Source of the DNA: an uncultured Spirochaetaceae bacterium
GTDB lineage: Bacteria; Spirochaetota; Spirochaetia; Sphaerochaetales; Sphaerochaetaceae
Reading direction: 5' to 3'
Assembly (NCBI GenBank): GCA_945910645.1
Contig: CAMDZB010000008.1
Coordinates: forward strand, 1-47,300
Length of the DNA: 47,300 nucleotides
The notes under the pieces were generated by a model. The model saw nothing but the letters and a program-made list of their open reading frames with translations. It searched no databases and was not told the origin of the DNA. A program made the position numbers and the translations under genes. Of this stretch, positions 17,742-21,735 are shown one piece after another. Each line of letters opens with the position of its first letter. Within the stretch, counting starts at the first letter, position 1.

Positions 17742-19553
17742 TTATAATATCTCCTTTAATACGCGAACAAGATATGTATTTTCTTCATATGTCCTTACGG
17801 CAAGACGTAAATAATCTCCCGTTTTAATTTTACCGGTTAAAGGCTTTGCAAGAATGTTGTACTTTGTGTAAAGACAGGTACATATTTCATCGGCTTTTAC
17901 TGATTTTGGCAATTGTATCATAATGTAATTTGCCTCAGACGGATAAACTTTTAAATCTTTGATGGTGCTAAGATCATCTGCCATTGCCTGCCTGTCTTTA
18001 ATGATATGATCAAGCGATTGACTGTATAAAGAATCGTACTTGTTATATATCTGTAAATAGAACTCCGCAAACGAATTAATATTCCAAATTGAAACAGCTT
18101 TCTTAATTTTATACACCATATCCGAATTGGATGAAACCATAACACCCAATCTCAATCCGGGTACTCCGTAGGACTTTGAAATACTCTTTATGATATACAG
18201 CTTCTTAAACCTTTTAATAATGCTTTCATCAATCAAGGTTCCGTTTTCAAATGATACAAAATCAACAAACGATTCATCTAAAATAAATGAAATCCCTTTA
18301 TTATCACACCAGGCGGCAAGGTCCATTATACTGTTTTTAGGTAAATAAAAACCTGTCGGATTGTTTGGGTTAACCAATATAAGAGTTGAAATGTTTTTAT
18401 CTTCAAAATAATTTATTATATCGTCTTTTGAATATCTAAAATCACTTTTACTTACATCAAAACAAATTGTGTTATCACTGTTGATTCTGTTTTTATATTC
18501 ATCAAACCCCGGAGTAATTATACCAAACTTGCCATTATTCTTACTAAATTCTCTAAGACACTCTTTAATCAATTCCGCCGCTCCGGATCCTACAACGATA
18601 TGAGAGTTTTCCACATTAAAGATATTTGATACAAGATGAGTGTTTACATCCATTCCAGACGGATAATTTCTTAAAAGAATTTCAAAATTTCCCTTTATTT
18701 CATCTATTAATTTTTGGGGAGGAAAATACGGATTAACAAGATAACAATAATCAAGAAGTTTAGGATACCGCCAATATCCACCGTATCGTGCACTTATTAA
18801 AGATAACCTATGCTCATCCTTTGCAAAAAGAGTTTCCGCTATCTTCAAATCATTTATATCGTCTATCTCGTACCATCTGCCCCTGTCAAGACGCTTAACC
18901 TTAATTTCAGGCTGATCCAATATTGATATGACTCTTAATACATTTTCATAGTATTCGTTTAACCCCATTGCTTTTTGATATGCTTCCAAAAAAGGAACAT
19001 AAAGACGAGAGGAAAAATCAGAACTGAATTTATAAATATTAATGCTTTTGTAGTATTTATCAGTTTCTGAATAATCGAATTTGGATTTTGTAATAAAATC
19101 TATAATATTATCGTTTTGATCAATACACAGACAAGTACCGTCCATCCATGACTCGAATTTATCAACAAGCGCCAACGTACGTCTTTTGTCATTGATAATA
19201 CAATCAAGAACATCCTGAGAAAAGATCAAATCCGATTCAAATAACAGGGTATCATCACTGATAAGATAATCGCGTGCAAGATACAGTGAATATATATTGT
19301 TTGTTTTATCATAAACATCATTTGTAACATATACTATGGGAGTTTTAATATTCAGTGTTGCGATATATTCCTTTAATATTTCGCTTTTATATCCGATTAC
19401 AATCACTATCCGCTTAAGAGAATAGGAATCTATAACAGTTAACATTCTTTCTATCAATGTTTTACCGGCAACATCAACCATACACTTAGGATTATTTTGA
19501 GTAAGATTTTTAAGTCTCTTACCCATACCTGCTGCCAATATTATTGCTTGCAT
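17742..19553 (-). CDS. Nucleotidyltransferase-aminotransferase fusion (LicC/PntC-like)
   Basis: A 603-residue two-domain enzyme. Residues 1 to about 235 are a sugar-nucleotide/choline-phosphate type nucleotidyltransferase: AIILAAGMGKRL, then PKCMVDVAGKTLIERML. The rest is a fold-type I PLP aminotransferase of the HisC/CobD type, with NPNNPTGFYLP, a DESFVDF aspartate and SISKSYGVPGLRLG holding the PLP lysine. This layout recalls fusions that activate a phosphonate or phospho-amino-alcohol with CTP after transamination; Treponema denticola has been reported to carry a fused 2-aminoethylphosphonate cytidylyltransferase (PntC) of this kind. No PEP mutase or decarboxylase gene is here, so the substrate is open. 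I chose ATG 19553 because of TAAGGAGAG at 19561-19569. Base and codon use is more AT-rich than the neighbours. Confidence 0.82.
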   Translation of the reverse strand: MQAIILAAGMGKRLKNLTQNNPKCMVDVAGKTLIERMLTVIDSYSLKRIVIVIGYKSEILKEYIATLNIKTPIVYVTNDVYDKTNNIYSLYLARDYLISDDTLLFESDLIFSQDVLDCIINDKRRTLALVDKFESWMDGTCLCIDQNDNIIDFITKSKFDYSETDKYYKSINIYKFSSDFSSRLYVPFLEAYQKAMGLNEYYENVLRVISILDQPEIKVKRLDRGRWYEIDDINDLKIAETLFAKDEHRLSLISARYGGYWRYPKLLDYCYLVNPYFPPQKLIDEIKGNFEILLRNYPSGMDVNTHLVSNIFNVENSHIVVGSGAAELIKECLREFSKNNGKFGIITPGFDEYKNRINSDNTICFDVSKSDFRYSKDDIINYFEDKNISTLILVNPNNPTGFYLPKNSIMDLAAWCDNKGISFILDESFVDFVSFENGTLIDESIIKRFKKLYIIKSISKSYGVPGLRLGVMVSSNSDMVYKIKKAVSIWNINSFAEFYLQIYNKYDSLYSQSLDHIIKDRQAMADDLSTIKDLKVYPSEANYIMIQLPKSVKADEICTCLYTKYNILAKPLTGKIKTGDYLRLAVRTYEENTYLVRVLKEIL

Positions 19554-19576
19554 AACGAAACTCTCCTTATTATATT

Positions 19577-19720
<144 letters not shown>

Positions 19721-19846: not shown

Positions 19847-19874
19847 TTGAATTGAATTTTATCAATGATATAAT
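19847..19874 (+). promoter_or_regulatory. Promoter of the treble-clef nuclease gene
   Basis: TTGAAT (19847-19852), 16 bases and TATAAT (19869-19874). A second overlapping TTGAAT starts at 19852. Transcription from about 19881 would give a leader of about 170 bases. Confidence 0.6.
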
Positions 19875-19880
19875 TAAGAA

Positions 19881-20049
19881 AAGAATTAGTTAGAAAATCA
19901 ATTTACACAGCATTTATCTGTGAACCAAAAAGAAAAGAGGGCATCAAAAGCAAGGAAAATACTTTCATTCCTCGGAGATAAATCTTTTCAAGTCATTCTC
20001 GCCATACTGCCACAAGTACTGGGTAGTACTGGAAAGGATTAATCCATAA
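19881..20049 (+). other. Long untranslated leader before the nuclease gene
   Basis: No open frame is supported in these roughly 170 bases. Small repeats are visible (AAGTACTGGGTAGTACTGG near 20015-20034; GGAAAATACTTTCATTCC near 19960), which could fold into short hairpins. The last part has AAAGGA about 14 bases before the ATG. It contrasts with the very short leaders elsewhere in the window. I recognise no riboswitch. Confidence 0.35.
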
Positions 20050-21735
20050 ATGAGCAAAACAATATCCGACAAGCCAGAACTTCTAAAGCAATGGAATTAC
20101 TCAAAGAACAAAGCAGACCCTAAAGAGGTCTCTGTATCCTCGAACAAAAAATACTGGTGGGTTTGCGATAAAGGTCACGAATGGGAGGCCGAAGCGTATT
20201 ACAGAACGAGAGGAGACGGCTGCCCCTACTGCTCAAACAGAAGGGTGCTGCGAGGGTTCAATGACCTCAAAACAACCAACCCAGAGCTATTAGAGGAATG
20301 GGATTATCAAAAAAATATCTCCATAGACCCCGAAAGCATAACACCAGGGAGCATCAAAGCAGTGCATTGGAAATGCAAAAACTGCGGGCATGAATGGAAA
20401 ACACAAGTAAGATACAGGGCGAAAAATGGAACTGGATGTCCGAAATGCGCTAAAAGCGCAATCAAGAGCAAAAGACAGTCCACAATTCTAAAAAGAAGCG
20501 GGGGGTTAAAAAATACAACTCTTTTGTTAGATTTTGATTATGAAGCAAACTACCCTCTCACTCCTCAAGACATAACAGAGCATTCGGGAAAAATTATCAA
20601 ATGGAAGTGCCATACCTGTGGACACAAATGGTCTGCAAAGGTGCAGAACAGAACCAACGGCAGAGGCTGCCCACTTTGCTCTAATAAAATAGTCGTAGCT
20701 GGTGTCAATGATTTGAGAACAACCCATCCAGACTTAGCTAGAGAATGGAATTATGAGAAGAACAAAACGCTACTTCCAAACCAAGTCAGCTATGGGAGCA
20801 GTAAGAAAGTATGGTGGAAATGCCCGATCAGGCATGAGTATCAAGCCACAATCAACAAAAGAACAAGTGGGAACGGGACTAATTGCCCTGTATGTGCTTC
20901 TGGCGCACAGACTTCCTTTCCGGAGCAGGCAATTTTCTACTACATAAAAAAACTCTTCCCTAACGCCATCAACCGCTACAAGCCTGATTTTCTTAAAGGA
21001 ATGGAATTGGACATCTACATCCCAGAGAGGCGCATAGCGATAGAATATGATGGAGCCCCATGGCATACGACCACAAAACTGAGCAGAGAGAAACAAAAGC
21101 GAGATCTGTGCAACAAAAACGACATTAAGCTTATCAGAATCAAGGAAAACCCGATAACGGCGAACAATAATGACACCTATGACATTGCAATCCACACCGA
21201 GGGGCTTGAAAACTACAAAAACCTCGAACCGTTGATCTATGAAATCATACGGGAAGTGAACCAGTTTTATTCAGTAGGTTTTTTCCCTCCTTTCGTCGTA
21301 GACCTAAAGAAGGACAAGACGGAAATACTTAAATACAGGCAAGTTCCTATCAAGGATTCGCTTCAAGAAAGACATCCAGAGATCGCCAAGCAGTGGCATC
21401 CCGAGAAAAACTGTGCTTTCAAGCCCTATATGTTCAAGTCTGGATCGGACTTTAAGGCCTGGTGGATATGTCCTGACTGCGGAAACGAATACGAGGCGAC
21501 AATACAGCACAGAGTAAGCGGAACAAACTGCAGATTGTGTGCCATCAAACGGTTCACACACTCCCGATGCAAAAGAATCGAGATGATCGACTTAAGCACA
21601 GGACAGGCAATAAGGGAATTCGAGTCATCCATGGATGCAGGAAGAGAACTCGGAATCAACCCATCAAACATCACGACCATATGCAAGGGCAAAAGACCTA
21701 ATGCTGGAGGGTTTGGCTGGAGATATAAAAATTAA
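20050..21735 (+). CDS. Treble-clef zinc-ribbon repeat protein with PDDEXK nuclease and NUMOD-like tail
   Basis: A 561-residue protein. Five repeats of a zinc-ribbon module of the DUF4379 type are visible, each with a WxxxKN stretch, CxxCGHxW or a variant and GCPxC (e.g. WWVCDKGHEW, WKCKNCGHEWKT, WKCHTCGHKWSA). Four precede and one follows a Vsr/DUF559-like nuclease domain at about residues 290-365: FPEQAIFYYIKKLFP, then ELDIYIPERRIAIEYDG, with Glu, Asp and Glu in the expected places, then HTTTKLSREKQKRD. The last 50 residues (IDLSTGQAIREFESSMDAGR to GFGWRYKN) resemble NUMOD DNA-binding segments of homing endonucleases. It is probably a DNA-targeting enzyme of mobile or defensive nature. It stands alone, opposite to its neighbours, in the AT-rich island. 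Confidence 0.8.
   Translation: MSKTISDKPELLKQWNYSKNKADPKEVSVSSNKKYWWVCDKGHEWEAEAYYRTRGDGCPYCSNRRVLRGFNDLKTTNPELLEEWDYQKNISIDPESITPGSIKAVHWKCKNCGHEWKTQVRYRAKNGTGCPKCAKSAIKSKRQSTILKRSGGLKNTTLLLDFDYEANYPLTPQDITEHSGKIIKWKCHTCGHKWSAKVQNRTNGRGCPLCSNKIVVAGVNDLRTTHPDLAREWNYEKNKTLLPNQVSYGSSKKVWWKCPIRHEYQATINKRTSGNGTNCPVCASGAQTSFPEQAIFYYIKKLFPNAINRYKPDFLKGMELDIYIPERRIAIEYDGAPWHTTTKLSREKQKRDLCNKNDIKLIRIKENPITANNNDTYDIAIHTEGLENYKNLEPLIYEIIREVNQFYSVGFFPPFVVDLKKDKTEILKYRQVPIKDSLQERHPEIAKQWHPEKNCAFKPYMFKSGSDFKAWWICPDCGNEYEATIQHRVSGTNCRLCAIKRFTHSRCKRIEMIDLSTGQAIREFESSMDAGRELGINPSNITTICKGKRPNAGGFGWRYKN

Follow-up and report, generated by a model that had tools for sequence, protein, structure and literature searches.

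A putative free-standing homing-type nuclease gene whose catalytic domain is embedded in arrays of zinc repeats

The window, by which we mean the whole 47,300-nucleotide stretch of DNA that was analysed, carries an open reading frame that is best read as a free-standing homing-type selfish nuclease gene, with a probability that we place slightly above one half. This reading is favored by the kinship of its catalytic domain with the structure 3R3P, near-invariant catalytic residues, relatives in phages that are annotated as homing endonucleases, a patchy distribution, and empty sites in related genomes. Against it stand the lack of a tRNA gene, a bracketing repeat or a shared locus for the window gene itself, the integrase-like core duplications, the occurrence of homologues on integrase-bearing elements, and two Abi neighbors. 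In the proposed mechanism, the four DUF4379 repeats before the nuclease, the single repeat after it, and the NUMOD-like tail would together recognize an extended bipartite site in the DNA. Between the two zinc-gripped half-sites, the EDxHD/Vsr-type nuclease would cut, and an allele without the gene, once broken, would be repaired from the copy that bears it. That the repeats bind DNA, that the nuclease cleaves it, and that homing proceeds by break repair are steps that we infer; cutting and copying are proposed by analogy with the nuclease family (PMC3943268, PMC12350094), and selfish insertion would extend from the relatives to the window gene, which does not itself lie at a tRNA gene.

Results and Discussion

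Domain Organization of the Window Gene

The reading frame is intact, starts with ATG, and encodes 561 amino acids. Its features are as follows.

20050..21735, + strand: 561-residue reading frame with the layout Z4-nuclease-Z1-NUMOD-like tail; proposed free-standing homing-type nuclease gene
20056..20235, + strand: DUF4379 repeat 1, residues 3-62 (Pfam and a repeat model made in this analysis)
20251..20451, + strand: DUF4379 repeat 2, residues 68-134 (Pfam and the repeat model)
20503..20682, + strand: DUF4379 repeat 3, residues 152-211 (Pfam and the repeat model)
20698..20898, + strand: DUF4379 repeat 4, residues 217-283 (Pfam and the repeat model)
20887..21183, + strand: EDxHD/Vsr-like nuclease core, residues 280-378 (alignment, profile, AlphaFold2, Foldseek)
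21349..21543, + strand: DUF4379 repeat 5, residues 434-498 (Pfam and the repeat model)
21598..21726, + strand: NUMOD-like tail, residues 517-559 (PF22083-like, sub-threshold; low pLDDT in the model)

The Pfam family DUF4379 (PF14311) matches the protein in five stretches with E = 1.9e-95 and 313 bits, relative to a curated cut-off of 24.5, and the zinc pattern W-x-C...C-x-x-C is kept in all five repeats. Because repeats 4 and 5 span residues 217-283 and 434-498 and the nuclease spans 280-378, the nuclease core lies between them. An earlier reading from the sequence only had proposed this layout, and the repeat model agrees with it. The profile matches expected by that reading were obtained in part: DUF4379 scores far above its cut-off, while the nuclease core gave only the Pfam family MTES_1575, below threshold (E = 0.035), and the tail matched PF22083 (I-HmuI_NUMOD-like) with E = 3.6e-4 and 20.5 bits, below the curated cut-off of 27. 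The tail also matches the PADLOC "HEase" model (2.2e-6). It thus appears NUMOD-like by resemblance, as had been suggested, and is not a confident NUMOD1 domain. In a full-length model of the protein (pLDDT 81), the zinc repeats match DUF4379 proteins of trypanosome mitoribosomes. The solved DUF4379 structures are mitoribosomal proteins and assembly factors, so such repeats can occur in nucleic-acid-bound assemblies.

The Nuclease Core Resembles the Catalytic Domain of I-Bth0305I

A profile built from 31 nuclease sequences was compared with all PDB sequences, and 3R3P was the sole significant match (E = 1.5e-4). This entry is annotated as "Mobile intron protein" and carries the Foldseek title "Homing Endonuclease I-Bth0305I Catalytic Domain." The AlphaFold2 model of the nuclease domain (pLDDT 79) also had 3R3P as its first-ranked Foldseek match (E = 3.7e-3, probability 1.00), with the Vsr structures 1CW0 and 1VSR lower in the list. 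Across 39 sequences, E292, E319, D321, E332, H339, D/E347, and K350 are 92%-100% conserved. All seven are present in the window protein, where position 347 is glutamate; most homologues have aspartate. Judged from sequence and model, the nuclease is EDxHD/Vsr-like and akin to the catalytic domain of I-Bth0305I. The PDDEXK/Vsr-type assignment of the sequence-only reading is borne out by these comparisons, and the acidic residues, whose loss would have spoken against that reading, are near invariant.

An Embedded Nuclease Is the Rule in a Patchily Distributed Family

The repeat model was applied to ∼35 bacterial homologues, which have two to seven zinc repeats, the nuclease, and then usually one to seven further repeats; a minority end in a NUMOD-like tail. 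As the nuclease-bearing homologues share a nuclease that is embedded in the zinc array, and rarely at its end, the placement of the nuclease between its fourth and fifth repeats is no peculiarity of the window protein, and Zn-nuclease-Zm is the rule of the family. Within the repeats, scaffold residues are conserved, and positions around the short helix and the loops vary strongly, a pattern that would be expected if different repeats read different DNA.

The homologues (31%-45% identity) come from Clostridia, Bacilli, Saccharibacteria, Alphaproteobacteria, Bacteroidota, and others, and also from plasmids, with more distant ones in phages. They are common in gut and rumen Firmicutes. The distribution is patchy across phyla. 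A full copy was found in none of 60 relatives of the window genome, and a match to the tail only was found in one of the 60. In the nuclease tree, Saccharibacterial copies are joined in one place with Clostridium (100/98) and in another with Erysipelotrichaceae (98/95), and the window protein has no supported neighbor.

The phage relatives carry a homing-endonuclease annotation and lie beside RNA polymerase genes, with adjacent group I or group II introns; one lies between helicase and primase genes. In Bacillus phage PBS1 (L088:2133-5655), a group II intron encloses gp34, and a group I intron comes after gp33, which agrees with the published intron placement (PMC12350094). Rfam introns were found only around phage relatives, with none in the window and none at 30 bacterial homologue loci, and a group I or group II intron around the window gene was rejected as a candidate. 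Residence within an intron, which is typical of the I-Bth0305I class and not strictly required for it, is therefore a trait of neither the window gene nor the 30 bacterial loci.

Several copies show variation or decay. On two Rhodococcus plasmids, strongly diverged copies with seven and nine repeats (L083:5034-6857 and L092:2418-4769) occupy the same site between flanks that are 85%-91% identical, which suggests quick turnover of the zinc array; both plasmids bear a copy, and the pair was rejected as an empty-site case. The L036 copy is interrupted by an inserted reading frame, probably an insertion sequence, the L042 and L029 copies are split, and the copy on L. kefiranofaciens pWW1 is in two genes. 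On viral contigs (L003/L005:7938-12937), a 5-kb stretch holds three related nuclease genes of the zinc-array type.

Some Relatives Are Single-Gene Insertions at tRNA or tmRNA 3′ Ends

At 4 of 41 loci (L019, L025, L035, and L048), a tRNA gene on the same strand ends 242-299 nt before the start codon of the nuclease; on a rough estimate of tRNA density, ∼0.14 such cases would be expected. The L025 unit extends over 2,933 bp. It starts at the base after the CCA of tRNA-Pro (7746), reaches as far as a second core copy (10679), and has the nuclease as its sole clear gene. A relative, G113, is empty at this position: the terminator found in L025 behind the right-hand core comes immediately after CCA in G113. 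A second relative, G109, is also empty at tRNA-Pro. The unit recurs in L020, with 93% identity at the right end, between short ACTCCGACCA repeats, where no tRNA was recognized.

The nuclease gene of L019 is located within an array of repeats that follows tRNA-Pro(cgg). The nuclease is missing from five genus-mates (G170, G172, G175, G176, and G179), and two of them, G172 and G176, are nearly continuous across the insertion point. The 57-nt repeat of this locus is dispersed, with five copies, so that the genus comparison, not the repeat, is the evidence for insertion. In L024, a 2,140-bp unit is flanked by 93-nt repeats whose terminal part is the 3′ end of ssrA. No further copy of this repeat occurs in the genome, where the ssrA gene itself is located on a different contig. 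No recombinase gene was found within the L025, L019, or L024 units. Some relatives are thus single-gene insertions at tRNA or tmRNA 3′ ends, and for L025 and L019 the site is empty in related genomes. In the nuclease tree, the cases are spread over three or more distinct parts.

Related arrangements were also seen. A degenerate array of tRNA-Pro 3′-end repeats with terminators lies downstream of tRNA-Pro(cgg) genus-wide (L019:7662-7872; L194 of G170). On the ssrA contig of the L024 genome (L140:1054-1411 and ∼1-770), intact ssrA is followed by a CoiA-like protein, recognized by eye and not by a profile, and ∼157 bp after ssrA match the sequence that precedes the L024 nuclease; this similarity suggests tandem single-gene cassettes at ssrA. 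An inverted copy of a tRNA-Leu 3′ end (21/23 nt) lies after the tRNA terminator and before the nuclease gene in L035 (7753-7830), and L019 has a shorter inverted tRNA 3′-end copy. Two further candidates were set aside: Oceanobacillus L041, where left synteny stops before the gene and the right side is unresolved, and the tRNA-Asn repeat of L007, which consists of partial tRNA copies at a contig end.

Recombinases, Defense Genes, and Alternative Readings

Core duplications at tRNA ends are a signature of integrases too. The units described above end in tRNA or tmRNA 3′-end cores in the manner of attL and attR, and the main alternative is that the genes are cargo of small non-autonomous integrative cassettes moved in trans by tRNA-specific recombinases. 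The nuclease would then serve the element, by guarding the site or in competition with other elements, and not its movement. This explanation accounts for the duplicated cores as well as homing does and is the main doubt on the homing reading; we regard it as a serious possibility of clearly lower probability. Serine recombinases, Mob_Pre, and tyrosine-integrase domains are the recurrent Pfam families among the neighbors, and a recombinase lies within ∼8 kb at 12 of 47 homologue loci; among 20 control windows taken from carrier genomes, one has a recombinase, a difference that is suggestive only. In Saccharibacteria, a 6.1-kb element of L027 (2191-8398) encodes a large serine recombinase and shows a 21-bp tRNA-Gln 3′-end repeat, and in L030 and L033, tyrosine integrase and MobV genes adjoin the nuclease. 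What speaks against transport in trans is that the L025, L019, and L024 units have no recombinase gene and that the nuclease is of the homing-endonuclease type. At three Saccharibacterial loci (L027:2191-8398, L013:2609-4224, and L047:2079-3903), a large serine recombinase abuts a tRNA 3′ end with the nuclease as cargo; the att-like 21-bp repeat is found in L027 and not in L013 or L047.

The sequence-only reading had left the choice between a solitary mobile endonuclease and a defense enzyme. The mobile option gains from the kinship with 3R3P and the empty site of L025, while defense finds little support. In the latter case, the protein would act against phages or plasmids by cutting their incoming DNA at a long site, in a restriction-like manner and with no methylase, which we consider unlikely. 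Two nuclease genes that are 94% identical in DNA (L010:6666-8162 and L011:466-1311), with homology that begins at the nuclease gene, lie 19 nt behind a Stk2 kinase gene and 10 nt behind an AbiJ-type gene, respectively. The helicase neighbors of L031 and L018 have weak matches to defense models, and PADLOC gave one weak match for the window nuclease region. The neighborhood survey called for by the sequence-only reading took in the two nearest genes to the left and right of the homologues and covered 129 proteins. No PADLOC family matched more than two of them, no recurrent defense family or other partner gene was found, and the neighbors examined are mostly metabolic, hypothetical, or recombinases. 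With weak PADLOC matches and no recurrent defense neighbor, the window gene was not recognized as a known anti-phage system, and its nuclease domain is nearest to a homing endonuclease. Nor are the homologues confined to housekeeping contexts, which would have weighed against a mobile or defensive role: the window gene lies among metabolic genes, and its homologues lie by recombinases and tRNA genes and on plasmids. A 7.3-kb island at tRNA-Gly in L031 (1528-9102), between long repeats, holds the nuclease, an XRE-type regulator, a helicase, and a 645-residue protein with repeats; no recombinase was seen in it.

That the protein is a domesticated host factor acting on RNA, with a part in the processing of tRNA or rRNA and comparable to the trypanosome mitoribosomal DUF4379 proteins, is highly improbable: the mitoribosomal and assembly-factor structures and the homologues that adjoin tRNA genes would fit, but the patchy distribution, with absence from nearly all relatives, the intact nuclease site, and the precise insertions with empty alleles in relatives do not.

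Comparison with Known Systems

The closest prior art is a group of nucleases encoded in phage introns, in which CapR/DUF4379-like repeats, three to five zinc repeats of ∼60 residues, are combined with an EDxHD/Vsr homing endonuclease; their authors speak of a "large unrecognised outgroup," for which UniProt gave thousands of matches (PMC12350094). The window family shares with it an EDxHD/Vsr-like nuclease and repeats, those of the outgroup being distantly related to DUF4379. In the outgroup, the nuclease is C-terminal and the genes lie in phage introns (PMC12350094), whereas in the window family the nuclease is embedded (Zn-N-Zm), the genes are free-standing, and some relatives lie at tRNA or tmRNA 3′ ends. 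I-Bth0305I consists of several domains and has an extended DNA-binding region (PMC3943268); it resembles the window protein in this and in the sequence and fold of its catalytic domain. The window nuclease, in contrast, is flanked by two DUF4379 arrays, and its gene is a free-standing bacterial one that has no intron. SegB of phage T4 is a free-standing homing endonuclease in a tRNA region, where it homes (PMC2988022). It is comparable as a free-standing nuclease gene beside tRNA genes, but it is a phage GIY-YIG nuclease with an unrelated catalytic fold. Vsr and the DUF559/MTES_1575-type nucleases share the PD-(D/E)XK-like fold and conserved D, E, and H; the similarity is weak, and, unlike them, the window nuclease has zinc arrays and no mismatch-repair context.

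Free-standing homing endonucleases are well documented in phages. A limited literature search found no description of a chromosomal bacterial family of this kind, nor of the embedded two-array architecture, the free-standing bacterial setting, or units at tRNA or tmRNA ends. The exact placement of some single-gene relatives at the ends of tRNA genes suggests a little-studied family of bacterial selfish genes, frequent in gut and rumen Firmicutes and present in Saccharibacteria. Should the tRNA-end units move by their own nuclease, they would be single-gene mobile elements that use the favorite landing sites of integrases without an integrase, and the repeat arrays flanking the cutter would be a natural modular DNA reader, which is directly testable. 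A more far-reaching proposal can be put forward only tentatively: that integrase-less single-gene mobile elements are widespread in bacteria, that an EDxHD nuclease set in expandable zinc arrays directs their insertion at tRNA and tmRNA 3′ ends, and that the number of repeats sets the target length on each side of the cut.

The Window Locus

The window contains no tRNA or tmRNA gene, and no direct repeat brackets the reading frame beyond 14 nt, which is at chance level. Its flanks were compared with the tRNA 3′ ends of the host (30/40 tRNA loci); the best match had 3 mismatches in 14, again at chance level, and a tRNA 3′-end core beside the gene was rejected. None of the relatives shares the locus, and the neighbors are not syntenic even within the genus.

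Two elements were predicted upstream of the gene.

19847..19874, + strand: sigma-70-like promoter, TTGAAT-16-TATAAT (consensus match only)
19995..20039, + strand: predicted hairpin that partly pairs the SD-like AAAGGA (z = −2.4 in a chosen segment)

The −35/−10 pair would give a leader of ∼170 nt, for which post-transcriptional control had been suggested from the sequence. As a whole, the leader shows no unusual structure (fold z = −1.4) and has no Rfam match, and the one weak hairpin was not seen in most of 15 homologues tested. Among 34 homologues and the window gene, no leader is widespread; only close pairs or triples and short stretches are shared. A riboswitch or conserved leader was rejected on these grounds, and control through the leader is not supported.

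The codon usage of the reading frame is moderately atypical. Its left neighbor (17742-19589, − strand) encodes a 615-residue protein that joins a nucleotidyltransferase to a threonine-phosphate-decarboxylase-like aminotransferase and may resemble PntC-type phosphonate enzymes. With a GC content of 31.8%, this gene is the strongest codon-usage outlier of the window and was probably acquired. Given the atypical codon usage of one gene and the outlying position of the other, the interval that holds both may be a small acquired region.
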